The translations under genes were made by a program, and so were the position numbers. A DNA stretch of 64,000 nucleotides from Sphingobium sp. TCM1 (lineage in GTDB: Bacteria; Pseudomonadota; Alphaproteobacteria; Sphingomonadales; Sphingomonadaceae): the NCBI RefSeq assembly GCF_001650725.1, contig NZ_LXVX01000011.1, forward strand, positions 62,001 to 126,000. Reading direction: 5' to 3'. Below the pieces are notes generated by a model that saw only the letters and a list, made by a program, of their open reading frames with translations, ran no database searches and had not been told where the DNA came from. Below, piece by piece: positions 9,622-45,860 of the stretch (position 1 is its first letter; every line of letters begins with the position of its first letter).

Positions 9622-10380
9622 TTAGAAGCGGCTGAGCAGCGCGCCGAAACCATCCATCTGATCGTTCAGTCCCATGCTGCGCAGGGCGTGCCAATAGGTG
9701 GCGGTATTGATGGCGATGACCGGCTTTTCCAGCCAGAATTCCGCCATGGCGGCCACTTCGGCGAAGGCGAGGTTGGTGCCGGCCTGGATGATCGCGTCTA
9801 CGCCCTCGCTCACGGCGATGGCGGTGCGCTTGAGTTTCTGCTTGTCCTCATGCGCGATCATCATGGGGGAAGGGGATTTAAGGCCCTCTATATGGACGAC
9901 CTCATAGCCCTGGTCCTCGAAGAATTTCTTGACGTTGGCGTCGCCGACCGGGGCGTAGGGGGTGAGGATGCCGATTTTGCGGATTGGGCCGGTTTCACTT
10001 TCATAGGCCTTGATCGCGGCGTCCACGGCGGTCGATCCCATGATGACGGGGATGCCGCCGGTCCGCTCCAGCATCTTGCGGTGCAGCCGCTCGGCCCCTT
10101 CCGCGCCGTCCCAGAAGGTTTCGGCCGACATGCCCATGATGACGCAGCCCGGTTCCATCGACATGGACACGTCGACGGCATCGAAGGTGGCGGCGCGGAT
10201 ATTTTCCAGCATCACCATGAAGCTGTCGTCATCGCTCACCCTGGTATCGGGGATGGCGATGCGCGAGAAATGATTGGTGACGCCGCGCGGGCGCATGGCG
10301 GCATATTCCGGCTCCACGCTGGTGTTGGTCGACGGCGCGACCACCGCGAACTTCATGCGATACCCCAGGGAATCCACCAC
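9622..10380 (-). CDS. AMDase / maleate isomerase-like (Asp/Glu racemase superfamily) protein
   Basis: 252-aa protein. The N-terminus SLGYRMKFAVVAPSTNTSVEPE matches the arylmalonate decarboxylase/maleate cis-trans isomerase group. The GTG start at 10380 has AAAAGGAC about 6 bases upstream and keeps the family's SLGYR leader; an ATG at 10356 would remove it. The two loops that carry the catalytic cysteines in racemases and maleate isomerases read MGMSAETFW and QAGTNLAF, so both positions appear to lack Cys (one Cys lies four residues before the first loop). The reaction may therefore differ from cis-trans isomerisation. It is the first gene of the minus-strand unit ending at 7157; an operator-like repeat lies about 80 bases upstream. 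Confidence 0.8.
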   Translation of the reverse strand: MVDSLGYRMKFAVVAPSTNTSVEPEYAAMRPRGVTNHFSRIAIPDTRVSDDDSFMVMLENIRAATFDAVDVSMSMEPGCVIMGMSAETFWDGAEGAERLHRKMLERTGGIPVIMGSTAVDAAIKAYESETGPIRKIGILTPYAPVGDANVKKFFEDQGYEVVHIEGLKSPSPMMIAHEDKQKLKRTAIAVSEGVDAIIQAGTNLAFAEVAAMAEFWLEKPVIAINTATYWHALRSMGLNDQMDGFGALLSRF

Positions 10381-19940: not shown

Positions 19941-21356
19941 ATGAATCATCCCTTCCAACCCGATCCGTCCGCAGCGCAGAGCCTGGAAGCCGCTCCGCCC
20001 ATGCCGCTCAAGCTCTATATCGGCTGGAGTCTCGGCACGCTGGGGCTGACCAGCTTCATGGTCGGCAGCTACCTGCTGCTGCGCTTCATGACCGATTATA
20101 TGGCGGTTCCGCCGGCGATCGCCGGGCTGGTCTTCGCCCTGGCCAAAATCTATGACGGCGTGGCCGATCCGATCTTCGGGTCGATCAGCGACCGGACGCG
20201 ATCGCGCTGGGGTCGCCGTCGCCCCTATCTGTTCGCGGGCGCCTTCGCCTGTGGGTTGACCTTCATGCTCGCCTTCAACGCGCCGATCGTCACCAGCCAG
20301 GCGGGCGCGGTTTCGTTGCTGGCCGTGCTGCTGGTACTCCACGCTACGTCCTACGCCGTTTTCGCGGTGCCCTATATGGCGATGCCGGCGGAAATGACCG
20401 ACCGGCCGCACGAACGATCCAAGCTGATGTCCTTCCGGGTGGTCAACGGGTCGCTGGGCAATCTGATGGGCGGCTGGGCTACCGCCACGCTGATCGCCTT
20501 TTTCGGCGGCGGGCTGGCGGGGCACCGGGCGATGGGGATCGTCATCGGCCTTGGCATCTTCGCGGTACTGATGGCCTGTTTCTGGCTGACCCGCGATGCG
20601 CGGCTTCGGGTCTATGATCCGCGCGGCCATGTGCCCTATCGCCAGCAATTGCGCAGCGCGATGCGCAACCGGCCCTTCATGATCCTTCAGGGGGCAAAGT
20701 TGATGCTGCTGAGCGCGGCCGCGCTGCATACCGCATCGGCCGCCTTCTTCGTCCAGCGCCGACTGGAGATGTCGGATGCCTGGCTGGGCACCATTTACGG
20801 CACGCTCACGATCGGCACGGTGATCGCACAACCCTTCTGGCTGGCCATGGCGCGCCGCTATGGGAAACGATCGACCTATACGTTCGGCGGCCTGTTCACG
20901 GCATTGATCTGGTTCGCCTGGCTGCCATGGGGGCCGGGAACGCCGGGTTGGATCATCGTCGTCATCGGCCTGGCCGCCGGACTTGGCAATGGCGGCATCG
21001 TCATGGTCAGCCAGTCGATGCTGCCGGACGCCATCGAATATCAGTATCTGAGCACCGGACAACGGATAGAAGGCAGCTTTGCGGGCCTCTACATCATGGT
21101 CGAGAAACTGGGACAGGCGATCGGCGCATCGCTCGTCGGCCTGCTGCTGGGCCTGTTCGGCTATATCGAGGCCCATGGCGGCACCGAAGTGGTGCAGCCC
21201 AAAAGCGCGATAACCGGAATAACACTTTGTTATTGCGTCTTTTCAACGGTATTTCTGCTGATCAGTGTGCTGGTCATGCGCTTCTATCCGCTGGACGAAC
21301 GCACTATGACATTGCGCGGGCCTGCGGCTCGAAATGATCGCACTGCGGATAATTAA
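19941..21356 (+). CDS. MFS transporter, GPH (MelB-type) cation symporter
   Basis: 471-aa inner-membrane carrier with about 12 hydrophobic segments. The GPH signature is clear: AKIYDGVADPIFGSISDRT followed by RSRWGRRRPYLFAGA in the loop between helices 2 and 3, and MPAEMTDRPHERSKLMSFR in the loop after helix 4. Family members couple uptake of sugars, glucuronides or other small molecules to cations. Site D upstream ties it to the IclR island, so it may import the island's substrate after passage through the TBDT that follows (139 bases downstream). Two further GPH carriers lie at 53323-54726 and 57844-59103. Confidence 0.9.
   Translation: MNHPFQPDPSAAQSLEAAPPMPLKLYIGWSLGTLGLTSFMVGSYLLLRFMTDYMAVPPAIAGLVFALAKIYDGVADPIFGSISDRTRSRWGRRRPYLFAGAFACGLTFMLAFNAPIVTSQAGAVSLLAVLLVLHATSYAVFAVPYMAMPAEMTDRPHERSKLMSFRVVNGSLGNLMGGWATATLIAFFGGGLAGHRAMGIVIGLGIFAVLMACFWLTRDARLRVYDPRGHVPYRQQLRSAMRNRPFMILQGAKLMLLSAAALHTASAAFFVQRRLEMSDAWLGTIYGTLTIGTVIAQPFWLAMARRYGKRSTYTFGGLFTALIWFAWLPWGPGTPGWIIVVIGLAAGLGNGGIVMVSQSMLPDAIEYQYLSTGQRIEGSFAGLYIMVEKLGQAIGASLVGLLLGLFGYIEAHGGTEVVQPKSAITGITLCYCVFSTVFLLISVLVMRFYPLDERTMTLRGPAARNDRTADN
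21334..21353. promoter_or_regulatory. Weak operator-like half repeat upstream of TBDT
   Basis: ATGATCGCACTGCGGATAA has the full right arm CGGATAA and a poor left arm, and resembles the site at 5537. It overlaps the end of the symporter gene, about 145 bases before the receptor start. It may extend the IclR regulon to the receptor, or be chance within coding sequence. Confidence 0.25.
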
Positions 21357-21495: not shown

Positions 21496-23874
21496 ATGAA
21501 AAATACGCGTCAAATCAAAAGCGTTATTGCTGTCTTGCTTGCAGGTGTCGCTCTGCCGACTGTTGCTTTTTCTCAAACTGAGCCAGTCGATGAGCAGTCC
21601 GGTGTTGGTGAAATCGTCGTTACTGCGCGTAAGTCTAAGGAAACCTTGACCGATGTTCCGGTTGCGATCACGGCCCTGACCGGCGACGCACTGGATAAGC
21701 GCGGTATCACCGACGTCCAGGATCTTGCCGCCTTCACGCCCGGCTTTCGTTTTCAGAACCAGTCGGTCGGCCGCAACGACCGTGGCTACAAGCAATATAA
21801 TATGCGCGGCATGGTACCGAACAATGCGTCGTCCGTCCGCCAGAACGTCACCATCTTCGTCGATGGCGCGCCGGTCAGCGGCGGCAACATCGCCGGTGTC
21901 ACCGATGTCGAGCGGGTCGAAGTCGTCAAGGGACCGCAGAGCGCCTTTTTCGGGCGCGGCACTTTTGCCGGCGCTGTCAACTTCATCACGCGCGAGCCCG
22001 GCTTTGACTGGGGCGGCACCGTCAGCGCCCAATATGAGCGCTTTAACAGCTATGACCTCAACGCCAGCGTCGAGGGCGGCATCATCGCCGACAAGCTGGC
22101 ATTCCGCTTGAGCGGGCGGGCTTATCATACCGATGGCCAGTACAAGGATTCGGTCTATTCCGACACGCGGCTGGGCCGACGCAACACCAAGTCGATCAGC
22201 CTCAGCCTGCTCGCCCAGCCGACCGAAAATCTGAAAATCCGTTTGTTCGGCGTCTATTGGAACGACAGCGACGGCCTGCCCGCCAATGCGCGCTACGGAC
22301 AGGATCAATATAATTGCAATGCTGCGGGCGGCGCCACGAACAATTATATCTGCGGCGAACTGGGCAGCGTGCCGATGGGCAGCGCCACCTGGGCGCAATA
22401 TATCGAGCCGACCGCCTATACCGCGCTCCAGAACGGGACGCTGCTGCACAAGAAGGGCTTTCTGGACCATCTGGGCCTGGAGCGCGACGCGCGGCAATTC
22501 CGCCTTTCCGCGGACTGGAACCTGGGCGACTTCACCGTCAGCGCGCTTGGCTCCTACGGCCTCAACAAATGGGGCTTCCTCCAGACCCAGTTCGGTGCGG
22601 ACCTGCGCGGCATTCCCAATGTCGCGGCGACCGCCGCCAACGGTCGGCTGGGCTATGTCTATTCGCTGACCGAAGGCAATACGCGGGACGAGGACAAATA
22701 TGTCGAATTGCGCGTACAGTCCCCGCAGGACAAGCCGCTGAAGTTCCTTCTGGGCGTCAACTATCAGAATCTGGAATATGACAATCTGACGACGTCATAC
22801 GGCACCACCGGCTATGTCCTGGCGACGCCGCGCGGATTGTCGGAAGCAAATACCTACAGCGCCTTCGGGTCGCTGACCTATGACATCATGGACAACCTGT
22901 CGATCTCGGCCGAGGGTCGCTACCAGATCGACAAGCAGTCGCAGACGACCTTCTCGACGACGACCTCCTATCTCGCCCATACGTTCAAGGCGTTCACGCC
23001 GCGCTTCATCGTGCAGTTCAAGCCCGATACGCGCTCGTCCATCTATGCTTCCTATTCGCGGGGCAATCGCGCCGGCGCGTTCAACAGCGTCTATTATGCG
23101 CAAAATGATTTCGTGAAGGCGCAGATCGACGCCGCATCGCCGGTCCAGGGGGTGATCCCGGAAGAAAAGCTGTGGATGGGCGAACTCGGTTACAAGGCGC
23201 AGTTGTTCGACAATCGCGTGCGGATCCTGGCTGCCGCCTATTATGGCAAATGGACCGATCGCGGCATCCCCAGCGCCATCCCGATCTATACCGATGCCGC
23301 GGCGCAGGCGACCGGCGTCACCAACGGAACGGTGGTCATCACCGCGCCGGGCGGCCGGGTCGAGGTCAAGGGCATCGAGTTGGAGACGACCTTCAAGGCG
23401 ACCGACAATCTGCTGCTCGAAGGCACGTTCAACATCGCCGACACGAAAATCCTGAACACCTATAGTTCGGATGCCTTCGCCCTGACCGGCAATGGAACCC
23501 CCTATGGCACGCAACTGCCCTTCTATCCCAAGATCACGGGGACCGCGTCTGCCACCTACAGCCGGCAGATCGGCATCTTCGACGCCTATGTGCGCGGCGA
23601 TGTGATCTATACCGGCAAACAGTATGAAACCGAAGCGAACCTGGCCTATACGGCGCCGGCTGCGACGGTAAATCTGCGCGTCGGCGCGGAATGGGACGGC
23701 AAGCGGATCGAGCTGTTCGGGACCAACATCTTCAACAACAAGACGCCGACCAGCCTGGCGCGGGGTACCTACGCCACCTATACTGCCGCGGGCATAGCGA
23801 CCACCCGCAACGCCATCACGGTGTCACTGCCTGATCGGCCGAGCTACGGCATCAAGCTCAGCACCAAATTCTGA
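21496..23874 (+). CDS. TonB-dependent receptor
   Basis: 792-aa outer-membrane receptor. ATG 21496 has AGGGGCCGGGA just upstream. A signal peptide ends near VAFSQ, followed by the TonB box VGEIVVTARK. The plug domain contains VAITALTGDALDKRGITDVQDLA, the NMRGM motif and VERVEVVKGPQSAFFGRGTFAGAVNFITR. The barrel ends LSTKF. The first 35 codons are AT-richer than the rest, common for efficient initiation. A strong terminator follows the stop codon. It sits between the IclR-island symporter and an exported esterase, so it may deliver the island's substrate or an esterified precursor across the outer membrane (inference). Confidence 0.93.
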   Translation: MKNTRQIKSVIAVLLAGVALPTVAFSQTEPVDEQSGVGEIVVTARKSKETLTDVPVAITALTGDALDKRGITDVQDLAAFTPGFRFQNQSVGRNDRGYKQYNMRGMVPNNASSVRQNVTIFVDGAPVSGGNIAGVTDVERVEVVKGPQSAFFGRGTFAGAVNFITREPGFDWGGTVSAQYERFNSYDLNASVEGGIIADKLAFRLSGRAYHTDGQYKDSVYSDTRLGRRNTKSISLSLLAQPTENLKIRLFGVYWNDSDGLPANARYGQDQYNCNAAGGATNNYICGELGSVPMGSATWAQYIEPTAYTALQNGTLLHKKGFLDHLGLERDARQFRLSADWNLGDFTVSALGSYGLNKWGFLQTQFGADLRGIPNVAATAANGRLGYVYSLTEGNTRDEDKYVELRVQSPQDKPLKFLLGVNYQNLEYDNLTTSYGTTGYVLATPRGLSEANTYSAFGSLTYDIMDNLSISAEGRYQIDKQSQTTFSTTTSYLAHTFKAFTPRFIVQFKPDTRSSIYASYSRGNRAGAFNSVYYAQNDFVKAQIDAASPVQGVIPEEKLWMGELGYKAQLFDNRVRILAAAYYGKWTDRGIPSAIPIYTDAAAQATGVTNGTVVITAPGGRVEVKGIELETTFKATDNLLLEGTFNIADTKILNTYSSDAFALTGNGTPYGTQLPFYPKITGTASATYSRQIGIFDAYVRGDVIYTGKQYETEANLAYTAPAATVNLRVGAEWDGKRIELFGTNIFNNKTPTSLARGTYATYTAAGIATTRNAITVSLPDRPSYGIKLSTKF

Positions 23875-23911: not shown

Positions 23912-23925
23912 CCATGGGGACATAT

Positions 23926-25005
23926 ATGATCCGAAGAATGCGGGGTTTCCGCTCTCTGCTCCTGCTTTTGGCCGGTCTTGCCCTGACGGGCGCCGCGCCG
24001 GTCCAGCCGGGGGCGGTCGACTATCCCCTAGCGCCACAGGCGCCGCAGCCCTATCCGGCGCTGACCTTCACGCTCGACGGGGGTGTGCGCGGGATCGCTG
24101 ATCTGACCTACGCCACGCAATATGGCTATCGGCCGTTGCGGCTCGACCTTTATCTCCCGCCCGCCGATCGTCCCGTGCCCAGGACCGGGCGGCCGGTGAT
24201 CGTCTATGTCCATGGCGGGGGCTGGGTGATCGGCAACAAGCGGCAGCCGGATTTTCACGGCCATTTCCTGCAAACCATGGCGGCACTGGCGCGGCGGGGC
24301 TATATCGTTGCCTCGATCGAGCACAGGTTGCGCGAAGAGGCAGGGTTTCCGGCAGCGACGCAGGATGCCAAGTCGGCGATCATGTGGCTGCGCAAGAATG
24401 CGGCGAACTATGATATCGACGTCAACCGGTTTGCCATCTGGGGGGGGTCGTCGGGTGGCAATATTTCCGGCAATGTAGCGGTCAGCTGTGGCGTCAAGGC
24501 GCTCGATCCGGTCTTTTCCGTTTACACACCCAAAGGCGCAACCCCGCCGCCCGATCCGCTGGCCGGCTATTCCAACTGCGTCCAGGCCGCCGTCGCCTGG
24601 TACGGGGTGTTCGACTTCAAATCGCTCAGGGCGCAAGCCATCCCTGGCGGCGACGCGAATTTCGACGAGCCGACATCGGCCGCGTCGCGCTATCTGGGAT
24701 GTGCCATCCAGTCGTGCCCGGCCGACATTATGAAGGCCGCCAACTCGGTCGCATTGGTCGATGCCGGTGATCCGCCGATGCTGTTGGTCCACGGGACGGG
24801 GGATACCAATATTCCCTATGGCCAGTCGGTGGAAATGGACAAGGCACTCAAGGGCGCGGGCGTTTCCTCCAGGCTCCTGCTGATCCCGCATTCGCTCCAC
24901 GGTTTTCGGGCCAAGACCGACGATCAGTCCGCAGCGGACATGCGCGCGGCGCTGGAGGCGACGTTCACCTTTTTTGACGAGACCATAGGCAAAGGTGGGC
25001 GCTGA
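23926..25005 (+). CDS. Exported alpha/beta hydrolase (esterase/lipase)
   Basis: 359-aa secreted or periplasmic alpha/beta-fold hydrolase. ATG 23926 has GGGGA 6 bases upstream; a twin-arginine-free signal peptide (FRSLLLLLAGLALTGAAP) follows. The oxyanion motif is HGGGWVIG, the nucleophile elbow IWGGSSGGNISG, the acid Asp in HGTGDTNIPYG and the His in PHSLHGFR. This is the BD-FAE/carboxylesterase group acting on carboxylic esters such as acetylated or feruloylated sugars. It lies immediately after a TBDT but behind a strong terminator. A role in releasing an acid from an ester in the periplasm for import is plausible, but substrate is unknown. Confidence 0.88.
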   Translation: MIRRMRGFRSLLLLLAGLALTGAAPVQPGAVDYPLAPQAPQPYPALTFTLDGGVRGIADLTYATQYGYRPLRLDLYLPPADRPVPRTGRPVIVYVHGGGWVIGNKRQPDFHGHFLQTMAALARRGYIVASIEHRLREEAGFPAATQDAKSAIMWLRKNAANYDIDVNRFAIWGGSSGGNISGNVAVSCGVKALDPVFSVYTPKGATPPPDPLAGYSNCVQAAVAWYGVFDFKSLRAQAIPGGDANFDEPTSAASRYLGCAIQSCPADIMKAANSVALVDAGDPPMLLVHGTGDTNIPYGQSVEMDKALKGAGVSSRLLLIPHSLHGFRAKTDDQSAADMRAALEATFTFFDETIGKGGR

Positions 25006-25147: not shown

Positions 25148-25927
25148 TCAGGAACCCGCTCGTTCACGCAACGATGCGACCAAGGCCGCGAGCGCCCGGA
25201 TTTCTGCTCCGGCCCGGTCCAGCGCAGTGTTCAACGCGGCCAGTTCTTCAGGGAGCGGCCCTGGTTGGTCGGGCAAGACGGTCTGTCTGGCGAGGCCCTC
25301 ATTGTCCGCCGGGAACATGAGTACCGGCAGGATGAACTGATCGATATAGCGCTCCAAGGCGTCACGCCCGCGCGGCCCGTCGGCGGCGAGATACAGGAAA
25401 TTGCGCATCTGCCATTCCGAAAGTTCGGCCAGTTCCAGCGTGGCGGGAATGACTTTTGCCGCCCGCGCATTTTCGAACAGCGCCTGAAAAGAGGCATCGA
25501 CCAGTTCCTGATAGACAGGCCGCACGATCCGAAGATTATAAGGTGACAGGCCGCCACCAAATGTGCGGGCAAGCAGCGGATAGCGCGGCAGAGCCTCGAT
25601 CGCATGGATCATGCCTGCCTTGATTCGCGCGGGAAAGCTCTTCTCGCTCGCGACCGCAGCTTCGGTCTCCGCGACAAAAGGGGCGGCATGGCGGCGCAGG
25701 ATCGTGCCTATAATCGCCTCTCGACCACCCACGCGGCGGTACAATGTCGCCCGCGAGATATCCGCCGCGCGCGCGATGTCGTCGATCGTGACCTTGTCGA
25801 CGCCCAGGTCAAGTATGACCGCCTCGGCGGCATCGAGAATGGTCTCGATGCCGCCGATGGTGCCGCCCGCTTCTCCGTCCGACCCGGTGTTCACGCTGGT
25901 CTGATCAGCGAACCTCGTAGATGTCAT
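25148..25927 (-). CDS. TetR/AcrR family transcriptional regulator
   Basis: 259-aa TetR-type repressor. The helix-turn-helix is VTIDDIARAADISRATLYRRVGG near residues 50-75, after the helix ILDAAEAVILDLGVDK. The C-terminal ligand domain is not assignable. The start is uncertain: ATG 25927 (MTSTRFADQ) overlaps the P450 gene by 23 bases, and GTG 25894 would give 248 aa; neither has a strong Shine-Dalgarno. It is cotranscribed behind the P450-DUF3237 gene. It probably controls the divergent P450/aldehyde dehydrogenase promoter, where an inverted repeat TGATAC-N13-GTATCA is found at 27707-27731. Confidence 0.87.
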   Translation of the reverse strand: MTSTRFADQTSVNTGSDGEAGGTIGGIETILDAAEAVILDLGVDKVTIDDIARAADISRATLYRRVGGREAIIGTILRRHAAPFVAETEAAVASEKSFPARIKAGMIHAIEALPRYPLLARTFGGGLSPYNLRIVRPVYQELVDASFQALFENARAAKVIPATLELAELSEWQMRNFLYLAADGPRGRDALERYIDQFILPVLMFPADNEGLARQTVLPDQPGPLPEELAALNTALDRAGAEIRALAALVASLRERAGS

Positions 25928-27659
25928 AAACCAACACGCCCATATTTGCTGCGCGGCCCTTCGCAATCGCCTGCACCTTGTTCAACCAGGCATAGCGAGG
26001 ATCGGCCGTCTCAAACAGAGGCGCAACGATAATGGGCGAATTTCCGGCCTTTCCATAATCCGACCGTCCTTCGTACCGCACATAGATCAGGGCGCCGTCG
26101 TCGGTCTCCAGCGTCGTGCGGACATCGACCTGTAACGTGCCGTCGGGCGAAACGACGGCCCAGTCGCCGGATGGCTGCGACAACTGGCTTGCCTTCAGGC
26201 GCTCGCCTTCCCACCGCGCATCCTCCACATCGACGATCATCCGCATCCCGCGGGGCGTTCCCGGCATGACGGCCGGGATGCCCAGCTTCAGAGTGGCGCG
26301 CGCGATCGGCACGAGCTGGATGCCGTCGTCGCGATTCTCGACAACGGTCGGCTGGACGGCCGCCGCCGCCGCCGAAGCTGCGGCCGCGATCGAGGCGCTA
26401 TTATTCTGGGATGCATACATGGCTATATCGGCGCTGTCGCCCAAGCGCGGTCCAGGGGTAAAGCGGACCGGCATATGCTTGATACCATTGGTGAAGTTGG
26501 ATCGTAGACGGCGTACCGGCCCATCGAGTTGCAGGTCGTTCAGGCGCATGATCGATTCCGTGAACATGGCGTTCAGCTCGGCCTTGGCCAGCATACTGCC
26601 GAGACATCGATGGATGCCACCGCTCGCGCCGAAGGCGAGATGTTTGGCGGCGGCGTTCGCGCGGCGGATGTCGAAACTGTCAGGGTCGGGGAATACTGTT
26701 TCATCCCGGTTGCCCGAGACATACCATAGCATCACGCGTTCGCCCTGCCGGATGGTCTGGCCATGCAGCTCGTGATCGCGCGTGGCCTTGCGTGCAAAGC
26801 CGAGGGCCGGGGTGGTCCAGCGCAGCATTTCCTCCACGGCATTGGGAATCAGGGCGGGATCGGCGCGCAGTTCCGCCATCACATCGGGCCGGGCGATCAG
26901 CTCCGCCATGCCGTGCAGATATTGGGTGCGGGTGGTTTCGTTGCCCGCCGTAGCCAGCACGATGAAGGTGGCACCCATTTCCATATCGGTAAGCTGGCGC
27001 CCGTCGCGCACGGCATTGGCGATCATCGAAAAGACATCGTCGGTCGGCTTCGCTCGCCGCCGCCGGGTCACTCGACGGGCATAGGACATCATCTGGAAGC
27101 CGCCCAGCGTCGCGCGCTGATGGTCCGACAGTTCGGGATCGAGCTGCCCGAACATCGCATTGGCCCATTCGAACAACTTGGGCCGGTCATGCGCGGGCAC
27201 ACCCAATATGTCGGCGACGACCTCGATCGGGGTATAGGCGGCGACGTCATGCAGGTCGCAGGCGCCTGTCTCGATCACCGCATCGATCGCGTTGCGGGCG
27301 TAAACCTTCATCGACTCCTCAAGCCGCTTCACCGCCTTGGGCACGAAAGCGTCGCGGATCGAGCCGCGCAGGAAGCCATGCTGGGGCGGGTCGGTCAGGA
27401 TGATCGAATTGTCGATCGTATTGGCCAGTTGCGCTTCGGACGTGTCCATCGGACTGACATTGGTGCGCGAGGTGAAGCCCTCGACATCCTTTTCGATAGC
27501 GGTGATGTCGGCGTAGCGCACGACATTCCAGAAGCCGCCATCGCTCGCTCGCGGCGAGAAGGTGAGCGGCGCCTGTTCGCGCAGGAACCGGAAATAATCG
27601 AAGGGAACCGCCTCGATGAAGGAATCGGGGTTGGTGAGATCGACGTCGCCAATGTTCAT
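25905..27659 (-). CDS. Cytochrome P450 fused to a C-terminal DUF3237 domain
   Basis: 584-aa protein, about 180 residues longer than a soluble bacterial P450. Residues 1 to about 400 are P450: I-helix motif ATAGNETTR near 238, ExxR in EEMLRW near 280, and the heme loop FGASGGIHRCLG with Cys near 350. In the usual loop the Phe is seven residues before Cys; here it is nine, so two residues are inserted. An Ala-rich linker (about 405-430) leads to a DUF3237-like domain with GDWAVVSPDGTLQVDVR, TLETDDGALIYVRYEGR and DPRYAWLNKVQA. P450 genes encode NAD(P)H- and ferredoxin-dependent hydroxylases; DUF3237 is a small barrel seen beside catabolic genes. No redox partner is encoded nearby. Divergent from an aldehyde dehydrogenase. 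Confidence 0.9.
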   Translation of the reverse strand: MNIGDVDLTNPDSFIEAVPFDYFRFLREQAPLTFSPRASDGGFWNVVRYADITAIEKDVEGFTSRTNVSPMDTSEAQLANTIDNSIILTDPPQHGFLRGSIRDAFVPKAVKRLEESMKVYARNAIDAVIETGACDLHDVAAYTPIEVVADILGVPAHDRPKLFEWANAMFGQLDPELSDHQRATLGGFQMMSYARRVTRRRRAKPTDDVFSMIANAVRDGRQLTDMEMGATFIVLATAGNETTRTQYLHGMAELIARPDVMAELRADPALIPNAVEEMLRWTTPALGFARKATRDHELHGQTIRQGERVMLWYVSGNRDETVFPDPDSFDIRRANAAAKHLAFGASGGIHRCLGSMLAKAELNAMFTESIMRLNDLQLDGPVRRLRSNFTNGIKHMPVRFTPGPRLGDSADIAMYASQNNSASIAAAASAAAAAVQPTVVENRDDGIQLVPIARATLKLGIPAVMPGTPRGMRMIVDVEDARWEGERLKASQLSQPSGDWAVVSPDGTLQVDVRTTLETDDGALIYVRYEGRSDYGKAGNSPIIVAPLFETADPRYAWLNKVQAIAKGRAANMGVLVYDIYEVR

Positions 27660-27776: not shown

Positions 27777-29129
27777 ATGACCGAGTTGGATGATGGCCAG
27801 GCGGCGATGAAGGGCGTGTTTGAAGCGCAACGCGCGCATCTTCCCGTGCTCAAGCGATCGTCTGCGGCAGATCGAGTCGATCGGCTCTCGCGGTTGCGCG
27901 CGAGCATCATCGCCCATGCCGACGCGATTGATCGCGCCCTGCACGACGATCTGCGCAAGGCGCTGGCCGGCATCACCAATTCCGAAATCCAGTCGGTGCT
28001 GCACGACATCGACGAGGCTATCGAGCAATTGCAGGGCTGGATGGCGGATGAAGTGATCGAGCCCTCGCCGAAATTCGCGGGCAACCGCACCTTCATCCGT
28101 TATGAGCCCAGAGGAAGCGTGCTGTTGCTGGGCCCCTGGAATTTCCCCTTCGCGCTGGTCTTCTCCCCCCTCGTGCCCATCATCGCGGCGGGCAACAGCT
28201 GCATCATCAAGCCCAATGAATTGCAGCCCGCGACCTCCGAGATTGTCGCGAAGATCGTCTCAGACTGTTTCGATGTGCGCGAAGTAGCAGTCTTCCAAGG
28301 CGGTGTCTCGGTGGCCGAGGCGCTGCAGGAACTGCCCTTTGACCACATCTTCTTCACTGGCAGTCCCGCCGTGGGCAAGCGGGTCATGGCCGCGGCTGCC
28401 CGGCATTTATCGTCGGTAACGCTGGAACTGGGCGGAAAATGTCCTGCCGTCATCGGGCCGGGCTATGATCTGACCGACGCGGCGGGCAAATGCGTTGGCG
28501 CCCGGTTCACCAATGCCGGCCAATTGTGCCTGGCGGTCGATCATGTCTGGGTGCCCCGTGCGCAGGTGCCACATTTCGTTGCGATCGCGTCCGCCATTAT
28601 CGACAAGATATTCTATGTCGATGGAGCGCTCCAGCGCGACCGACTGTCTCGTCTGGTCGATGCGCGCAATTTCGACCGGGTCATGGCCTATATCGACGAT
28701 GCGACGGCACGCGGCGCGCATATTGCCAGGGGGGGAAACGGTGATCGCGATGAACTGACCATCCATCCCACCCTATTGGTGGATGTTCCCATGGATGCGC
28801 GCATCATGCAGGATGAAATTTTCGGCCCGTTGCTGCCGGTCATCGGCTATGACGACCCGGACCAGATCGTCGCGCAGATCGATAAGACCGGAAAGCCGCT
28901 GGCGACCTATATCTTCAGCAACGAGGCAAGCTTTGTCGACGATCTGCTGATGCGGACGACATCGGGCGGCGTTACCGTCAATCATGTCGTCATGCATTAT
29001 CTTGAAACCCGCCTGCCTTTCGGCGGCGTCAACGGCAGCGGCATCGGGCGCTACAAGGGCGTTCACGGTTTTCGAGAGCTGTCGCACGCCCGATCGGTGT
29101 TCGTGAGCAATCCCGACGCGATCCGTTAG
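27777..29129 (+). CDS. Aldehyde dehydrogenase (coniferyl-aldehyde / class 3 type)
   Basis: 450-aa NAD(P)-dependent aldehyde dehydrogenase of the short class 3/coniferyl aldehyde group. Hallmarks are GPWNFPFALVFSPLVPIIAAGN, the cofactor loop FFTGSPAVGKRVM, the general base Glu in TLELGGKCP near 220 and the nucleophile Cys in NAGQLCLAVDHVWVP near residue 250. Length is usual for the class. Divergent from the P450-DUF3237 fusion with a shared control region, so it probably oxidises an aldehyde formed after P450 hydroxylation (inference). A weak stem with a T5 run (29129-29153) follows the stop codon. Confidence 0.9.
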   Translation: MTELDDGQAAMKGVFEAQRAHLPVLKRSSAADRVDRLSRLRASIIAHADAIDRALHDDLRKALAGITNSEIQSVLHDIDEAIEQLQGWMADEVIEPSPKFAGNRTFIRYEPRGSVLLLGPWNFPFALVFSPLVPIIAAGNSCIIKPNELQPATSEIVAKIVSDCFDVREVAVFQGGVSVAEALQELPFDHIFFTGSPAVGKRVMAAAARHLSSVTLELGGKCPAVIGPGYDLTDAAGKCVGARFTNAGQLCLAVDHVWVPRAQVPHFVAIASAIIDKIFYVDGALQRDRLSRLVDARNFDRVMAYIDDATARGAHIARGGNGDRDELTIHPTLLVDVPMDARIMQDEIFGPLLPVIGYDDPDQIVAQIDKTGKPLATYIFSNEASFVDDLLMRTTSGGVTVNHVVMHYLETRLPFGGVNGSGIGRYKGVHGFRELSHARSVFVSNPDAIR

Positions 29130-29204: not shown

Positions 29205-30128
29205 CTAAGAGCCGCTGGCATGTTCGGGGGTGGTCGTTCGCAAACCCATCGCGGTCAGTGCGCGCAGGACATCGGTCCGCTCATCCAGCCGGAACGTCCC
29301 GCTTATCGCCATTTGTCCATCCGATGGATTGGCCAGGGTGATATCATTCGCAAAATAGCGGTTCATTCGTTCGAGGACGACCGCAGCGGGTTGATTGTCG
29401 AACGTGATCCGCCCGTCGCGCCATTCATTTTGCGCAGCCGCATCAATGTTTGCCAGGCGGTAGGAACCGGACGTCGGAAGCGTAAGGGCATCGTTGGGCT
29501 TGAGGTCGATGGCGGCGGCGCGCGCGGTCTGGACGCGAACGGCGCCTTCAACAAGGATCACGACGGTAGCGCTGCCGTCGGTTCCAACCGAAAAGGCCGT
29601 TCCCAGATCCATGATGCGATTACCCGACGCCATCACGACGAAGGGATGTGCGCTGTCGTGGACGACCTTGAAAAAGGCGCGCCCTCGGATCAGGGCGACC
29701 CTTCGTTCGCCGGTCCAGGCAGGCACTTCGAGGGCGGTCTGCGCGTCCAGCGTCACCGCCGAACCATCAGCCAGCCGGAAGGTGCGCGGGGCGGCCGCGC
29801 CATTGGTCAGCATCTGGGACGCGGCGACGGGCGTGGCCGGATGCTGATGGAACGCAAACCAGCCGCCGATGCCGATCGCGGCCAGGAGGCTGGCCGCGAG
29901 CGCGGTGATGAGCGGCGCCCTGATGCGACGGCGCAACGGCACCACGGTGGCGTCGCCGAGGCGGCTGCGGGCGCCCGCCAGCATGGCCTGGAGCGCGGGA
30001 TCGGCCGCAGCCCCGTCCAGGTCGGCCCAGAAGCGAGCGACTTCACCCTCCGCCGTCCCATCGCCAGCGGCCGGATCGGCGCGCGCCCGGACAAAAGCGG
30101 CGATCGCATCGTCCCGATCGTCAGCCAT
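29205..30128 (-). CDS. FecR-type anti-sigma / signal-transducing membrane protein
   Basis: 307-aa FecR family protein. The N-terminal cytoplasmic domain (DUF4880-like, EGEVARFWADLDGAAAD) is followed by one membrane segment near residues 75-95 (LITALAASLLAAIGIGGWF), then the periplasmic FecR domain with RTFRLADGSAVTLDAQT, GRAFFKVVHDSAHPFVV and NRIMDLGTAFSV. ATG 30128 was chosen over 30146 for its GAAGG element 8 bases upstream; it overlaps the sigma factor gene by 8 bases. FecR proteins hold an ECF sigma factor until the STN domain of a ligand-loaded receptor signals. Here the sigma gene precedes it and an STN receptor is divergent, giving a complete triad. Confidence 0.9.
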   Translation of the reverse strand: MADDRDDAIAAFVRARADPAAGDGTAEGEVARFWADLDGAAADPALQAMLAGARSRLGDATVVPLRRRIRAPLITALAASLLAAIGIGGWFAFHQHPATPVAASQMLTNGAAAPRTFRLADGSAVTLDAQTALEVPAWTGERRVALIRGRAFFKVVHDSAHPFVVMASGNRIMDLGTAFSVGTDGSATVVILVEGAVRVQTARAAAIDLKPNDALTLPTSGSYRLANIDAAAQNEWRDGRITFDNQPAAVVLERMNRYFANDITLANPSDGQMAISGTFRLDERTDVLRALTAMGLRTTTPEHASGS

Positions 30129-30639
30129 TGGCTTCGCCTTCGTCATTCATCAGAAACCGCAATGCCTTCATCATATGTTTTTCCACGGCGCTGACCGACA
30201 GGCCCATGGCCTGCGCAATGTCGCGATAGCTCATCTGGTCGAAGCGATTGAGCAGGAATATGTCCCGCGTCCGTTCGGGCAGCATGGCGATCCTCTGGCT
30301 GACGGTCAGAACCTGTTGCTTGCCCATGAGGACGCGTTCGGGCGTCACCTCCTCAACCGGATGGTCAAATTCCGTAAGCTCCTGGTGCCGGTCCGCCAGC
30401 CGGACGCTCGCCCGGCGGTGGCGATCAGCCAGGACGCTGCGAGCTGTCTGGAACATGTAGGACCGGACATTGTCGATCGGCTTCTGCCCCTCGTCGCGGC
30501 CGCACAGGCGGAGCCAGATGTCCTGGACAACGTCGTCGATGTCGCTGCTGTTGCGCAGTTGGCCGCTGAGCCAGTTGCGCAGCGCAGGGACATGCGGTGC
30601 GAAATCGGCTTCCAGACTGTTCAACCTGTCGCGAACCAA
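30121..30639 (-). CDS. ECF sigma factor (FecI-like)
   Basis: About 172-aa ECF sigma-70. Region 2 contains NSSDIDDVVQDIWLRL and NVRSYMFQTARSVLADRHRR; region 4 contains LPERTRDIFLLNRFDQMSY, RDIAQAMGLSVSAVEKHMM and KALRFL. The start is uncertain: the frame is open further upstream, but a TTG at 30639 with GAGAGG 7 bases before it gives the usual FecI length and leaves a 103-bp promoter region to the divergent receptor. It overlaps the FecR gene by 8 bases. Probable targets are the receptor at 33488 (candidate promoter at 33303-33331) and possibly the receptor at 30743. Confidence 0.87.
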   Translation of the reverse strand: MVRDRLNSLEADFAPHVPALRNWLSGQLRNSSDIDDVVQDIWLRLCGRDEGQKPIDNVRSYMFQTARSVLADRHRRASVRLADRHQELTEFDHPVEEVTPERVLMGKQQVLTVSQRIAMLPERTRDIFLLNRFDQMSYRDIAQAMGLSVSAVEKHMMKALRFLMNDEGEANG

Positions 30640-30742
30640 TGATCGGCCTCTCGCGCCTGCGGACGGGCGGATCCCGTCGAAGAGCAGGCGTCGTATTGCA
30701 GCGCGCAGGACTATTCGATAACGCAGGGCGAAGGCAAGCGGG

Positions 30743-33271
30743 GTGCCGATTTCAATATCGATGATGCAAGACGTTTCATGTCGCATGGCACTGGCCCTTA
30801 CCCTGGGGGCGATCGTGACCGGGCCAGCCGTGGCCGAGGCGGCGCCTGCGCGACAGCAACGGGAAGCGCTTGGCGGCGCGTTGCGGCGGCTGGCGTTGCA
30901 CAAGAACGGGTCCATCCTCTTTCGTCCCGAAATGGTCGCGGGCCGGACCGCGCCGCCAGCGGCTGTCGGAAATATGCCGCTGGAGCAGGCATTGGGCGTG
31001 CTGCTGGCGGGATCGGGCCTGCGTCACCGCCGGATCGGGCGAAATACCTTCCTGATCGAACGGAGGCCAGCCGAGCGCCGTGACGCCCCGCCTGCGCCCG
31101 CCGCACCCGACGAGCGCCAGCCCATCGTCGTGACCGCGCTGCGCCGCCCGATGCTGCTGGGCGACACGCCGGCCAGCATCGTGGCGATCACCCGCGGCGA
31201 CATGCGGCGCAGCGGCGCCACCGACCTTGGCGATATCGCCACGCTCGCGCCGAGCCTGACGCTCACCAATCTGGGTACGGGGCTCGACCGGCTGTCCATG
31301 CGCGGCGTCTATGGCGCGGGGGAGGCGAGCGTCGGCCTTTATTATGGCGACACGCCCGTCGCGGGGCCGAGTGGGTCCACGTCAGATCCCGGTTTCATGA
31401 CGCCCAATCTGCTCATGGTCGATGTCGACCGGGTCGAGGTGCTGCGTGGCCCGCAGGGCACGCTCTATGGCGCGGGATCGCTTGCCGGGACGGTTCGCAT
31501 CCTGTTCGCCCAGCCCGCGCTCGACAAGATGGAAGGGCGCATCGAATCGTCGTCCGGCTTCCGGTCCAATGGCGACCCCGACCTGTTCACGTCCGCGTGG
31601 ATGAACGTGCCGATCCTGGCGGACCGGATCGCCGCACGCGCCCTTCTCTATCGTCGCACGCGGGGTGGCACGATTGACAATCCGGCGCTGAAGGGGCGCG
31701 ACCTGGACGATCGGGTGGAAACCGGCGGGCGGCTGGCCCTGCGCTTCGCGGACGGGAATGGCTGGCGGCTGACACTGGGCGCGGCCTATCAGCGCAGCCG
31801 TTATCGGGACGCAGGCCAGGCCAGCCTCGTCGCTGGGCAGGATGAAACCACGCGCCCGGTGCGCCTTCCCTTTCGCGGCATTTTCGCAATGGCGTCGGCG
31901 GCTCTGCATGGCGAAACCGATCTCGCGACCGTCGACCTGTCGGTGTCCCGCTACCGATGGACAACGCGGCGAACCTTCAACCTGACCAACGTTCTCCTGT
32001 CGCAGAAGGACAATAGGACCGATTGCGCCAACCTCTTCGGGCGTTCGGCGCCGGCCTGTTCGGATGCCGAACTGGCACGGTGGAACGGCTATATCGACGC
32101 CCATGTTCCCGCCATCCTCGACCAGCCGCTCAAGGTCGGCGCGACGACGGCCGAACTGCGCCTGTCCAACACCGGGCGTTTGAGCTGGACGGCAGGCGCC
32201 TTTTTCAGCCGGCGCCGGGACGAGGGGTCGAGCGCGGTGCGGCAGGCCGAACGCGCCACCGGCCTGACGCTGGACCAACCCGCCTTCGGCCTTCGCCGCT
32301 TTTCGGGGCGGCTGGATCAGTTCGCGGGCTATGTCGATGCCAGCTGGAGCCTGTCCGACAAGCTGGACGTGACCGGCGGCGGTCGGTTCTTCCACTATCG
32401 TCGCTCGGCCGCTGGCGAGACGGTCATCCGCAATATCGTGACCGAACCCTATGACGCAGCCTATGGGTTCAGCGACCGCTACAGTGCGTCGGGAACCGTC
32501 ACGCGCCTGCGCGCGGACTATCGCCCGCTGAGTGGCGTGCTGCTCTACGGCCAGTTCGCCAGCGGCTTCCGGCCCGGCGGCATAAACATCATACCGGGGC
32601 TCGACCCGCGGCTCGCTGTTTACCGCGACGACCGCATCGCGAGCATCGAGGCGGGCTCGCGCCTCTCGCTGCTGGACGCAGCGATGGAAATCGACCTGGC
32701 CGCCTATCGGCAGCGCTGGACCGACATGCAATATGCCGCCGCCAGCCGCAACGGCGCCTTCGCGCTCATCACCAACATCGGCAATGCCCGGATCAAGGGC
32801 GCGGAAATCGGGCTGACGATCAGGCCGGCAGCCAGCCTCACCGCACGACTGCAAGCCACCTATACCGACGCCCGCCTGTCATCGGACCAGATTACCGATC
32901 TGGCGACGACGCCCGGACGGACCGGGGACAAGCTGCCCTATGTTGCACCCTGGGTGCTGTCCGGGTCGATCATGCACAGCTGGTCGCTGTCCTCCGCAAC
33001 CCGGCTGAGAGCGGACGTCACCGGACGGTATCTGGGCCGCCATCATTCCGCATTCCGGCGGGACGATCCCAACGACCTGTCGATCGGAGGAACGGGCACC
33101 GTCGACGCGCGCCTCTCGATCGAAACCGGGCGATGGGACGCGTCGCTGTTCATCGACAATCTGACCGATGCGCGTGGGCGCATCTGGGCCAGCAGCGGGT
33201 CGTTCGAAACCGGCGCGGTCAGCCGGAATCCGGCCCGGACGGCAGGCGTCGCGCTGGCCGCAAACTTCTAG
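30743..33271 (+). CDS. TonB-dependent transducer with N-terminal STN domain (FecA/FpvA-type)
   Basis: 842-aa receptor. The GTG start at 30743 has AAGG 8 bases upstream; ATG 30761 is an alternative. After a signal peptide (MALALTLGAIVTGPAVAEA) comes an STN signalling domain, about residues 35-105, with ALGGALRRLALHKNG, NMPLEQALGVLLAGSGL and RRIGRNTFLIE. The TonB box region IVVTALRRP and plug motifs SMRGVYGAGEASVGLYYG and VDRVEVLRGPQGTLYGAGS follow; the barrel ends ALAANF. STN domains contact FecR in the periplasm, so this is the sensor of the divergent sigma/FecR pair. It is similar in plug sequence to the receptor immediately downstream, suggesting duplication. Confidence 0.93.
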   Translation: MPISISMMQDVSCRMALALTLGAIVTGPAVAEAAPARQQREALGGALRRLALHKNGSILFRPEMVAGRTAPPAAVGNMPLEQALGVLLAGSGLRHRRIGRNTFLIERRPAERRDAPPAPAAPDERQPIVVTALRRPMLLGDTPASIVAITRGDMRRSGATDLGDIATLAPSLTLTNLGTGLDRLSMRGVYGAGEASVGLYYGDTPVAGPSGSTSDPGFMTPNLLMVDVDRVEVLRGPQGTLYGAGSLAGTVRILFAQPALDKMEGRIESSSGFRSNGDPDLFTSAWMNVPILADRIAARALLYRRTRGGTIDNPALKGRDLDDRVETGGRLALRFADGNGWRLTLGAAYQRSRYRDAGQASLVAGQDETTRPVRLPFRGIFAMASAALHGETDLATVDLSVSRYRWTTRRTFNLTNVLLSQKDNRTDCANLFGRSAPACSDAELARWNGYIDAHVPAILDQPLKVGATTAELRLSNTGRLSWTAGAFFSRRRDEGSSAVRQAERATGLTLDQPAFGLRRFSGRLDQFAGYVDASWSLSDKLDVTGGGRFFHYRRSAAGETVIRNIVTEPYDAAYGFSDRYSASGTVTRLRADYRPLSGVLLYGQFASGFRPGGINIIPGLDPRLAVYRDDRIASIEAGSRLSLLDAAMEIDLAAYRQRWTDMQYAAASRNGAFALITNIGNARIKGAEIGLTIRPAASLTARLQATYTDARLSSDQITDLATTPGRTGDKLPYVAPWVLSGSIMHSWSLSSATRLRADVTGRYLGRHHSAFRRDDPNDLSIGGTGTVDARLSIETGRWDASLFIDNLTDARGRIWASSGSFETGAVSRNPARTAGVALAANF

Positions 33272-43476: not shown

Positions 43477-44475
43477 CTACACCTTGAGGTCCGTTAGTCG
43501 GCGGATCGAAAAGACCCCGATCGCATAGAGCCCGATCAGCATGGGGAAGCCGATGGTGAAGATCGGGTCCTGAGCGACATCCAGATAGAAGCCGGGGTTG
43601 TAGGTAAACAACACGGTGAAGGCGAACACGGGAAGCACCGTCAGCATCCAGCCCGTCATGCGCCCTTCGGAACTCAGCGCACGGACCTTGAGGAACAGAT
43701 TGGCCCTGTCGCGGATCACGCGCGCAAGATTTTCCAGGATTTCCGCCAAATTTCCGCCGGTTTCGGACTGGACCGCCACGCACACGACGAACATGCGGAT
43801 ATCTTCCAGATCCCATCGTTCGGCCATGCCGAACAGCGCGTCGTTCAATTCCGCGCCATAGGAGACTTCATCTGCGACCAGGCCGAATTCGCTGCCGATC
43901 GGGTCCTGCATTTCCTGGGTGATCAAATCTATGGCAGACGCGATCGGATGCCCTGCGCGCAGCGACCGGATGAAGATGTCGAGCGCATTGGGGAATTGAT
44001 CCTGCATCCGCTTGCGCCGCCGCTGCGCGCGGTGGCTGATGACCATCAGCGGCAGGCCCGCGCCCATGATGACGGACATGATCGCGATCAGTTGCACCAC
44101 GCCGATAGTCAGGCTGAAACGTCCGGCCACCAGCAGAAACATCAGGACGAACAACGTGATCGACGCAATTCCCGATCCGACGAGCAGGTTGCGCGCGCTC
44201 ATCGAAATGCCGGACATCATCACCATGCGGATCAGGCCGACATGGCGCCGCTGCCACCAGGGTGCATCCGGCGCGACCGTGGGCGGCGCATTCTTGAGCA
44301 GCGCGGTGCGGACCGCGTCGCGATCCTGCCCCGTTCGCAGCATGGACATTCGCCGGTTCACCGTGCCCAGTTCGGCCCGCCGATTGAGGATGATGCTCAT
44401 CACGAGTTGCGACAGCAGGAAGACGGTCGCGAAAACCGCGATCAGAATCGCCAGGCGGAGCAGGAGCGGGGTCAT
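43477..44475 (-). CDS. tadB: Type II/IV secretion system F protein TadB
   Basis: 332-aa inner-membrane platform protein of the GspF family and partner of TadC. The T2SSF domain contains QFPNALDIFIRSLRAGHPIA, LNDALFGMAERWDLEDIRMF and QSETGGNLAEILENLARVIR. Hydrophobic segments are at residues about 5-25, 95-150 and the C-terminus. ATG 44475 overlaps the TadA gene by 4 bases, giving the standard tadA-tadB-tadC order. Confidence 0.93.
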   Translation of the reverse strand: MTPLLLRLAILIAVFATVFLLSQLVMSIILNRRAELGTVNRRMSMLRTGQDRDAVRTALLKNAPPTVAPDAPWWQRRHVGLIRMVMMSGISMSARNLLVGSGIASITLFVLMFLLVAGRFSLTIGVVQLIAIMSVIMGAGLPLMVISHRAQRRRKRMQDQFPNALDIFIRSLRAGHPIASAIDLITQEMQDPIGSEFGLVADEVSYGAELNDALFGMAERWDLEDIRMFVVCVAVQSETGGNLAEILENLARVIRDRANLFLKVRALSSEGRMTGWMLTVLPVFAFTVLFTYNPGFYLDVAQDPIFTIGFPMLIGLYAIGVFSIRRLTDLKV

Positions 44476-45860
44476 GGCATGTCGAACTGCGTCGTCGGGC
44501 GGAACACGGACGGATCGATTTCAATGCCGTGCGCCGCCAGGATGTTCATGAATTTGGGCCGGATGCCGGTCGCCTCGAAATGGCCGGCGACCCGACCGTC
44601 CGCATCGCGGCCGGCCATCTTGAAGCGGAAAATATCCTGCATGGTGATGACCTCGCCCTCCATCCCCGTCACTTCGGATAGGGAGAGTATCTTGCGGCGC
44701 CCGTCACTCAGGCGCCCTACTTGCAGCACGACGTTGATCGCGCTTGCGATCTGGCTGCGCGTGGATCGCGCGGAGATGTCGATGCCGCTCATGCCGACCA
44801 TCTGCTCGATCCGCGACAGGGCATCGCGCGACGTGTTGGCGTGGACGGTGGTCATCGACCCGTCATGGCCGGTGTTCATCGCCTGCAGCATGTCGAATGC
44901 CTCGCCCGACCGGCACTCGCCCAGGATTATCCGGTCAGGCCGCATCCGCAATGCGTTCTTGACGAGATCGCGCTGGGTCACTTCACCGCGGCCCTCGATA
45001 TTGGGCGGGCGGGTTTCCAGGCGCGCGACATGATCCTGCTGCAACTGCAACTCGGCCGAATCCTCGATCGTCACGATCCGCTCGCGTTCGTCGATATGGG
45101 ATGACAGCGCGTTCAGCATGGTGGTCTTGCCCGAACCGGTGCCGCCCGAGATGATGATGTTGAGCCGCGCGGCGACGATCGCCTTCAGCACGGTCGCCAT
45201 GGACGCGGGAATGCTGCCCAGCTCGATCATCCGTTCCATGCTGATCGGCTTTTTGGAAAATTTGCGGATCGACAGCAGCGATCCGTCGATTGCCAGTGGC
45301 GCCACGATCGCGTTCACGCGCGATCCGTCGGCCAGCCGGGCGTCCACGAACGGAGAGGATTCGTCGATACGCCGACCTACTGCGGTGACGATCTTCTGGA
45401 TGATGCGCAGCAGGTGGCGCTCATCCTGGAACCGGGTGGCGGTGCGCTCCAACAGGCCATAACGCTCGACGAACACGGATTCGCAGCCATTGACCAATAT
45501 GTCGGTGATCGTCTCGTCCTTCAGCAACGGCTCGAGCGGCCCGAGGCCGAGCAGTTCGTCGAGCACGTCGTTGCACAGCAGCGCCCGCTCGTTGCGATTG
45601 AGGACTTCGCCTTCCGCTTGCAGCAGTTCGGCCACGATTTCCGACACGTCCTTGACGATCTGCTCGCGCGACATCTTGTCGAGCAGGGCCAGGTTGATCC
45701 GGTCAAGCAGCAGCCGGTGAATCTTCACCTTGAGCGCGATCATCCGGTCGGAGAAGGAAGGCTCCGCCGGTACGGCGGCGAGCGCGGCGGCCGGCGGCGG
45801 TCCGTCGACCTCGACCGGCTCCGGCGTGATGAGCTGCTCGCTCTTGCGGACATTCCACAT
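44472..45860 (-). CDS. cpaF: Tad pilus assembly ATPase TadA/CpaF
   Basis: 462-aa secretion ATPase of the GspE/VirB11 superfamily that powers Flp pilus assembly at the inner membrane. Walker A is SGGTGSGKTTMLNAL near residues 232-245, the Asp box includes ETRPPNIEGRGEVTQR, Walker B is PDRIILGECRSGEAFD near 310, and the His box is TVHANTSRDALSR near 337. The N-terminal domain (about 60-180) is typical of CpaF. ATG 45860 lies 2 bases after the CpaE stop codon on this strand. It overlaps tadB by 4 bases. Confidence 0.95.
   Translation of the reverse strand: MWNVRKSEQLITPEPVEVDGPPPAAALAAVPAEPSFSDRMIALKVKIHRLLLDRINLALLDKMSREQIVKDVSEIVAELLQAEGEVLNRNERALLCNDVLDELLGLGPLEPLLKDETITDILVNGCESVFVERYGLLERTATRFQDERHLLRIIQKIVTAVGRRIDESSPFVDARLADGSRVNAIVAPLAIDGSLLSIRKFSKKPISMERMIELGSIPASMATVLKAIVAARLNIIISGGTGSGKTTMLNALSSHIDERERIVTIEDSAELQLQQDHVARLETRPPNIEGRGEVTQRDLVKNALRMRPDRIILGECRSGEAFDMLQAMNTGHDGSMTTVHANTSRDALSRIEQMVGMSGIDISARSTRSQIASAINVVLQVGRLSDGRRKILSLSEVTGMEGEVITMQDIFRFKMAGRDADGRVAGHFEATGIRPKFMNILAAHGIEIDPSVFRPTTQFDMP

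Follow-up and report, generated by a model that had tools for sequence, protein, structure and literature searches.

A rare cytochrome P450–DUF3237 fusion in Sphingobium sp. TCM1 and its possible role as a two-step enzyme

Introduction

Self-sufficient cytochrome P450 fusions, such as those of the CYP102 and CYP116 types, carry a C-terminal redox partner on a linker, and non-redox domains, too, are known as fusion partners of P450s. Here we describe a gene in which a P450 is joined in one reading frame to a DUF3237 domain. The gene lies in a 64,000 nt stretch (the window, whose positions are used below unless a locus is named) of contig NZ_LXVX01000011.1 of the soil-type bacterium Sphingobium sp. 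TCM1. Given its composition and its occurrence elsewhere, we consider the chances to be about even that the fusion is a natural two-step enzyme, in which the P450 and the DUF3237 barrel act on one intermediate and an aldehyde dehydrogenase (ALDH) follows.

A preliminary description of the locus had taken DUF3237 proteins to be of unknown function. This view is outdated, since functions are described for PhcF, PhcG, PinX and PhnH. PhcF and PhcG are reported as DUF3237 decarboxylases that open cyclic ethers (PMC12997858). For the DUF3237 protein PinX, given as 42% identical to PhcG and 38% identical to PhcF, mutant data led to the prediction that it decarboxylates lariciresinoate and opens the furan ring, and imperanene was confirmed as an intermediate (PMC12607616). 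The fungal protein PhnH (149 aa) acts on a prenylated substrate, closing a cyclic ether by adding a phenol to the prenyl alkene, with a glutamate as the proposed acid (PMC8704240). The described members thus make or break C-O bonds beside alkenes. The fused domain belongs to a large second DUF3237 subclade, for which no characterized member was found in the literature searched.

Results

A full P450 is joined through a linker to a DUF3237 domain

The fusion gene (25905–27659, minus strand, stop codon included) is a single open reading frame (ORF) of 584 aa with an ATG start and without an internal stop. It encodes a P450 domain (aa 1–402; 26454–27659, minus strand), an Ala-rich linker (aa 403–447; 26319–26453, minus strand) that comprises the P450 tail and, presumably, a former intergenic stretch, and a DUF3237 domain (aa 448–584; 25908–26318, minus strand). 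In a Pfam scan of the protein, PF00067 (p450) scored 88 bits against a cut-off of 22.8 and PF11578 (DUF3237) 84.9 bits against a cut-off of 24, with aa 448–583 spanning profile positions 2–149 of 149; no other Pfam family was detected at E 0.001. NCBIfam returned only below-cut-off matches, to P450 models and, over the DUF3237 part, to two 'hypothetical protein' models (PRK00872). The P450 motifs AGNETT, EEMLR and FGASGGIHRCLG, which we take to be the I-helix Thr, the ExxR motif and the haem-ligand Cys loop, are intact by eye in the translation and align with those of homologues, and the DUF3237 motifs GDWAVVSPDG, TLETDDGALIYVR and PRYAWLN are likewise present. An AlphaFold2 model of the whole protein (mean predicted local distance difference test score, pLDDT, of 87) has two confident domains, while aa 419–442 have pLDDT below 50. 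The ORF, Pfam matches, motifs and fold model together confirm the P450, Ala-rich linker and DUF3237 domain recognized at this position in the preliminary description.

The P450 half aligned over its full length with solved bacterial P450s, in one case across aa 4–407. Among the best matches were CYP125MRCA (369 bits), CYP268A2 (236), the other CYP125 chains (225–233), P450terp (224) and CYP124 (217), values that are bit scores and not percent identities. Membership of a CYP family takes at least 40% identity to named members; by its best solved relatives the domain is CYP125/CYP124-like. Modeled alone, the DUF3237 domain reached a pLDDT of 94.8 and matched solved DUF3237 structures (4pux, Z 20.9; 3g7g, Z 19.9; 3c5o, Z 19.8). 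Lower-ranked structural neighbors, with Z of 9–11 and about 7–11% identity, were the Diels-Alderases AbyU, PyrI4 and PloI4, allene oxide cyclase and dirigent proteins. These fit a cyclase-type barrel but may reflect no more than a common arrangement. No relative of PadC, the phenolic acid decarboxylase with which PinX is compared in PMC12607616, was recognized among the 50 matches listed by VIA-align, which says nothing either way.

The fusion is found in four genomes and is rare

Using a DUF3237 profile led by the fused domain, we scanned the contigs of 84,980 species and analyzed the best 80 of 554 confirmed relatives. The two best of these 80 lie in further P450–DUF3237 fusions, a 592-aa frame in a Hydrocarboniphaga metagenome-assembled genome (MAG; L047), with 56% identity in the P450 and 64% in the DUF3237 part, and a 591-aa frame in Spongiibacter thalassae (L048), with 61% and 62%, respectively. 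A 593-aa fusion with 60% identity was detected in G418, a second member of the Spongiibacter genome's family. In all, the searches, of a kind suggested in the preliminary description, yielded three more fusions, 55–60% identical end to end to that of the window. No P450 was present in the frame of the DUF3237 match at 77 of the 78 remaining loci of the best 80; the other, L110, ends at a contig edge. Eight other places among the matches listed, with frames longer than 400 aa (426–634 aa), were rejected as extra fusions, having no P450 at E 1e-3 within 5 kb. By eye, the DUF3237 domain there follows an ordinary start or a signal-like sequence, and the long frame is an open stretch upstream.

Full-length searches were carried out on genome samples drawn per group, with only the top 3–4 candidates per genome scored in the large samples. 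In the window's family, 1 of 397 sampled genomes had a fusion (the window's own). The Spongiibacter genome's family gave 2 of 21 and the Hydrocarboniphaga MAG's family 1 of 58. For the order to which the Spongiibacter genome belongs the count was 2 of 390, both already in the family count, and for its class 1 of 360, again an already counted carrier. None of 318 sampled genomes in the family of Pseudomonas T1-3-2 had a fusion, and two had unfused relatives. The best matches of other genomes in the window's family were never below E 1.1e-81, whereas fusions score below 1e-200. Among 1236 matching plasmid records, none had a place covering 80% of the fusion query, and two phage records matched, both only over the DUF3237 part. 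The fusion is rare, and additional examples may exist beyond these four.

GC content at third codon positions exceeded that at second positions in 14/14 blocks of 40 codons across the P450, linker and DUF3237 parts, the contrast being weakest in the Ala-rich linker. Because this coding pattern runs unbroken through all three parts, there is no sign of a frameshift. A sequencing error or artificial joining of two genes, a doubt voiced in the preliminary description, is ruled out by the continuous codon pattern and the three further fused genomes.

Unfused relatives suggest how the fusion arose

The genome G1111 belongs to the family of Pseudomonas T1-3-2. Here a P450 gene (L162 9330–10604, minus strand) ends in a TGA stop and is followed after 24 nt, in one reading frame, by a DUF3237 gene (L162 8883–9305, minus strand). 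The tandem resembles the fusion in sequence (54% identity over both halves), gene order and frame, and differs from it by the stop codon and 24 nt between the two genes. A TetR gene (L162 8121–8876) and then a [2Fe-2S] ferredoxin (Fer2) gene (L162 7760–8107) come after the DUF3237 gene, and a ferredoxin reductase gene (L162 10603–12057) is divergent. In Pseudomonas T1-3-2 itself, the P450 gene (56% identical) is followed by a TetR gene, and a DUF3237 gene (50%) lies about 3 kb off in a separate run of flavin monooxygenase, alcohol dehydrogenase, DUF3237 and short-chain dehydrogenase genes. The linker of the Hydrocarboniphaga fusion keeps the residues MPIKLIPLA at the start site of the stand-alone genes (compare MSITLIPLA in G1111 and MTINLIPLA at L050).

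Because the P450 and DUF3237 genes of G1111 are in-frame neighbors, loss of one stop codon would yield a fusion, and the fusion was probably born by such a loss between adjacent genes. The change probably ran from separate genes to fusion, with fission in Pseudomonadaceae as the alternative. The P450s of the fused and unfused clusters form one clade (support 100/100) apart from 10 outgroup P450s, and stood apart again in a tree with 30 other P450s that was built without G1111. The DUF3237 domains of the four fusions group together, with support of 96/88 in one tree and 84/89 in another. A single fusion origin, then transfer between Alpha- and Gammaproteobacteria, is likely on these phylogenies. 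The series from separate loci to in-frame tandem to fusion gives a clear picture of the birth of an enzyme fusion.

A stop codon lost between operon neighbors could also have tethered two enzymes of one pathway without consequence. The in-frame G1111 genes with their 24-nt gap, the poor conservation of the linker and the unfused state of the parts in two genomes all fit such neutral tethering. However, the fusion has been kept across Alpha- and Gammaproteobacteria at 55–60% identity, beyond a fresh accident, though this is no proof of an advantage. We regard neutral tethering as rather improbable.

Conservation favors an enzymatic DUF3237 domain

Between fusions, identity is 55–63% in the P450 (89% in one close pair), 58–66% in the DUF3237 domain (84% in the close pair) and 21–32% in the linker (76% in the close pair). 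Ratios of nonsynonymous to synonymous substitution rates (dN/dS) were 0.03–0.29 for the P450 and 0.06–0.19 for the DUF3237 domain where computable, and are rough, since dS was saturated. Residues conserved completely or almost completely across 42 DUF3237 sequences, among them R32, R46, D58, R73, D80 and W117 (A4 numbering), are kept in the fusion. To judge by these comparisons, the fusion is under selection.

The preliminary description had proposed that the DUF3237 domain binds or processes the P450 product or delivers the substrate. A non-catalytic module that binds or delivers a hydrophobic substrate or product, or steadies the P450, would suit the small barrel fold and the long flexible linker and follows that earlier proposal. 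We nevertheless consider it unlikely, as R32, R46, D58, R73 and D80 are retained in the fusions and all four described members found are enzymes. Conserved polar residues and known same-fold enzymes favor catalysis over mere binding, without settling the choice between binding, processing and delivery.

Related DUF3237 genes in Sphingobium

As PhcF-, PhcG- and PinX-like references we used the DUF3237 genes of G144, a genome of the window's genus inferred to be SYK-6 or a near relative. In G144, two of these genes adjoin each other and a third lies close to an NmrA-type reductase gene, all positioned as the SLG numbers of phcF/phcG and pinX/pinZ predict, and the assignment of these genes as Phc and Pin is made from this arrangement and should be read as putative.

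Three further DUF3237 genes were noted in the window's genome. One (L151 9644–10150, minus strand) is PinX-like, with 68% identity to the G144 gene near the NmrA-type gene, and may encode a lariciresinoate decarboxylase. The other two paralogues (L150 9902–10480 and L152 9492–10112, both minus strand) have by eye N-termini resembling twin-arginine signals (RRGLLK..., RRAFLTGG...), and some DUF3237 proteins may be exported.

Neighboring genes and substrate hints

Downstream of the fusion gene, the next gene encodes a TetR-family regulator (PF00440; 25148–25966, minus strand), the listed ORF of which overlaps the fusion gene end. A TetR gene directly follows the fusion, P450 or DUF3237 gene in 5/5 other clusters with a related P450. 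A divergent ALDH gene (27777–29129, plus strand) has as its best NCBIfam match MdlD benzaldehyde dehydrogenase, at 327 bits, below the 550-bit cut-off. ALDH genes, identified by Pfam or blastp, were found in all six clusters holding a related P450, making it plausible that the divergent ALDH supplies a next step, as the preliminary description had suggested. The window's ALDH is 58–59% identical to those of the two unfused clusters but only 34–37% identical to those of the fused gammaproteobacterial clusters, and for this reason ALDH is perhaps not the same enzyme in every cluster. Links to the fusion are unproven for the neighboring alpha/beta hydrolase (BD-FAE/Abhydrolase_3; 23914–25005), TonB-dependent receptor (21496–23874) and MFS_2 transporter (19941–21356) genes, all on the plus strand.

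A gene of the linalool dehydratase/isomerase (Ldi) family was found 3, 5 and 15 kb from the fusion in the three gammaproteobacterial carriers. S. thalassae has four Ldi genes, and so the nearness weighs less there; G397 and G418 have one each. No Ldi gene was found in 14 control genomes, in G144 or in P. schmalbachii. The genes within 8 kb of the G418 fusion include those for two acyl-CoA dehydrogenases, a FAS1-like dehydratase-region protein, an enoyl-CoA hydratase and an AMP-ligase. Among the solved P450s that best match the fused one are enzymes whose names refer to sterols, methyl-branched lipids and terpineol, the last being the substrate of P450terp. Our best guess from these hints is a branched terpenoid-like compound that would be oxidized to an acid, perhaps not the same one in every carrier.

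Among the Ldi-family proteins, that at L141 6864–8762, near a P450–DUF3237 fusion, is 632 aa long, about twice the 318-position profile, and by eye has hydrophobic N-terminal segments; the open frames that hold the Ldi matches beside the other two gammaproteobacterial fusions measure 636 and 645 aa.

A scan for promoters and terminators found 2 and 1 sites, respectively, where shuffled sequences had 1.6 and 2.8, and no claim is drawn from it. Elsewhere in the window, FecR (29205–30146, minus strand) and extracytoplasmic function (ECF) sigma factor (30121–30915, minus strand) ORFs overlap at their ends, and the latter also runs into the beginning of a divergent ORF for a TonB receptor with an STN domain (30743–33271, plus strand), the whole being a cell-surface signaling set. 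An arylmalonate decarboxylase-like protein (PF17645, 48 bits) is encoded at 9622–10380 (minus strand). A row of minus-strand genes for a type II/IV secretion ATPase (44472–45860), an AAA_31 protein (45863–47065) and a secretin (47382–48860) is perhaps a set of the Flp/Tad pilus type.

Discussion

That the P450 and the DUF3237 domain share a pathway is well supported, because the rare fusion is kept in a few unrelated bacteria and the separate genes are neighbors in another; perhaps they also act on the same molecule. In the proposed two-step enzyme, the P450 half would be a class I P450 of the CYP125/CYP124 neighborhood, relying on a separate ferredoxin and reductase and oxidizing a methyl-branched, hydrophobic, probably terpenoid-like substrate. 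The DUF3237 barrel would be a non-redox acid-base enzyme, a lyase or cyclase, on the same intermediate, and its step would most likely make or break a C-O bond or remove an activated carboxyl, by cyclic-ether opening or closing, elimination or decarboxylation. The aldehyde dehydrogenase would then take over the product, which would feed into acid/CoA degradation. The gene would have arisen once, probably by stop-codon loss, and then moved between distant Proteobacteria. We infer the substrate class, the DUF3237 reaction, the order of the two steps and any channeling. More tentatively, at somewhat short of an even chance, we suggest a bifunctional P450 in which oxygenation and a following or preceding redox-neutral C-O or decarboxylating step are combined in one chain, with a reactive hydroxylated or acid intermediate passed from haem pocket to barrel.

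Several observations weigh against the two-step proposal. In the best P450 tree, the four fusions do not form one clade, although their monophyly was not rejected (p-AU 0.426 in the approximately unbiased test). The DUF3237 domain is not always paired with a P450, because P. schmalbachii, with a DUF3237 protein 57% identical to the fused domain, has no P450 match at E 1e-10; the scanned neighbors in that genome encode a type II/IV secretion ATPase, a solute-binding protein, an AstE-like protein and an ABC ATPase. No DUF3237 domain was found at E 1e-3 at 28 other P450 loci (L006, L008–L034; flanks up to 1.5 kb long). The window's fusion has no Fer2 gene close by; on its contig, the nearest match is about 65 kb off, in a search confined to that ferredoxin family. 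Ldi is missing from the window's genome and Pseudomonas T1-3-2, yet G380, a sphingomonad without the fusion, has two Ldi matches, and the substrate may therefore differ among carriers. Around stand-alone DUF3237 relatives of the fused domain's subclade, we surveyed 110 same-strand neighbors (gap of at most 250 bp, at most two genes a side) at 59 of 78 loci, with genes called by a simple script and those above 700 aa left out. The commonest at E 1e-8 were glyoxalase_4 (12), short-chain dehydrogenases (10), thiolase, luciferase-like and zinc alcohol dehydrogenases (5 each) and P450 (3); these relatives lie in mixed catabolic operons with no single partner. In G380, PhcF- and PhcG-like genes (65% identity each) lie divergently beside a gene for a P450 that shares 43% identity with the fused P450 (L144 7522–10524). 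This is a second P450/DUF3237 link, but with a DUF3237 of the other subclade. Finally, the fused domain is 20–29% identical to the PhcF-, PhcG- and PinX-like sequences and falls in another subclade (forks 97/82 and 100/99). Because of this low identity and separate clade, the reaction of PhcF, PhcG and PinX is not transferable to the fused domain, and because the subclade differs we do not class the domain as a decarboxylase.

The G380 locus may itself be a P450-linked phenylcoumaran cluster. It is very improbable that the fused domain is a PhcF/PhcG/PinX-like decarboxylase, with the P450 standing in for the alcohol oxidases of lignan and phenylcoumaran catabolism: the G380 arrangement, the window's own PinX-like gene and a genus shared with the SYK-6-like G144 favor it, but the fused domain lies in the other clade at the low identity given above, the names of the best solved P450 relatives refer to sterols, branched lipids and terpineol, and Ldi genes, in G418 also beta-oxidation genes, lie near the gammaproteobacterial fusions.

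If the bifunctional reading with a handed-over intermediate is true, the protein would be the first case of a DUF3237 lyase or cyclase joined to a P450, and the reaction of the large second DUF3237 subclade would thereby be defined. The fusion ties that uncharacterized subclade to a concrete partner, narrowing the search for its reaction to the substrate and product of one P450. Should the barrel act on P450 products by closing or opening cyclic ethers, the protein would be a ready-made two-step biocatalyst. We found no report of a P450–DUF3237 fusion in the full-text literature searched, a body that leaves out most subscription papers, and the terms 'fused' and 'fusion' were absent from an alphaproteobacterial P450 study (PMC8197338).

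Compared with described DUF3237 enzymes, the fused domain shares its family with PhcF and PhcG of Sphingobium SYK-6 and PinX of Novosphingobium LY, which are reported to act after oxidases in catabolic pathways. Unlike the fusion, those proteins stand alone, belong to the other subclade and have a longer variable loop (judged on the G144 genes). PhnH of Penicillium herquei (6jjs) has the same fold (Z 18.2 over 130 residues; profile match E 2.8e-14) but is a stand-alone fungal biosynthetic enzyme with 22% identity and no Asp at the D58 column of the alignment. On the P450 side, enzymes of the CYP125, CYP124, CYP268 and P450terp types are the best solved relatives end to end, but their chains of 388–480 aa leave no room for a second domain (best 60 of 436 matches), and Protein Data Bank searches with the DUF3237 part returned no P450 chain. 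The fusion resembles self-sufficient P450s in carrying a C-terminal partner on a linker and differs from them in that the partner is not a redox domain, no FMN/FAD or Fe-S domain having been found in the 584 aa; the unfused G1111 cluster has separate genes for a ferredoxin and a reductase. The P450–DUF3237 protein is thus a new P450 domain architecture and, because P450 fusions with non-redox domains are already known, not a new category of fusion.

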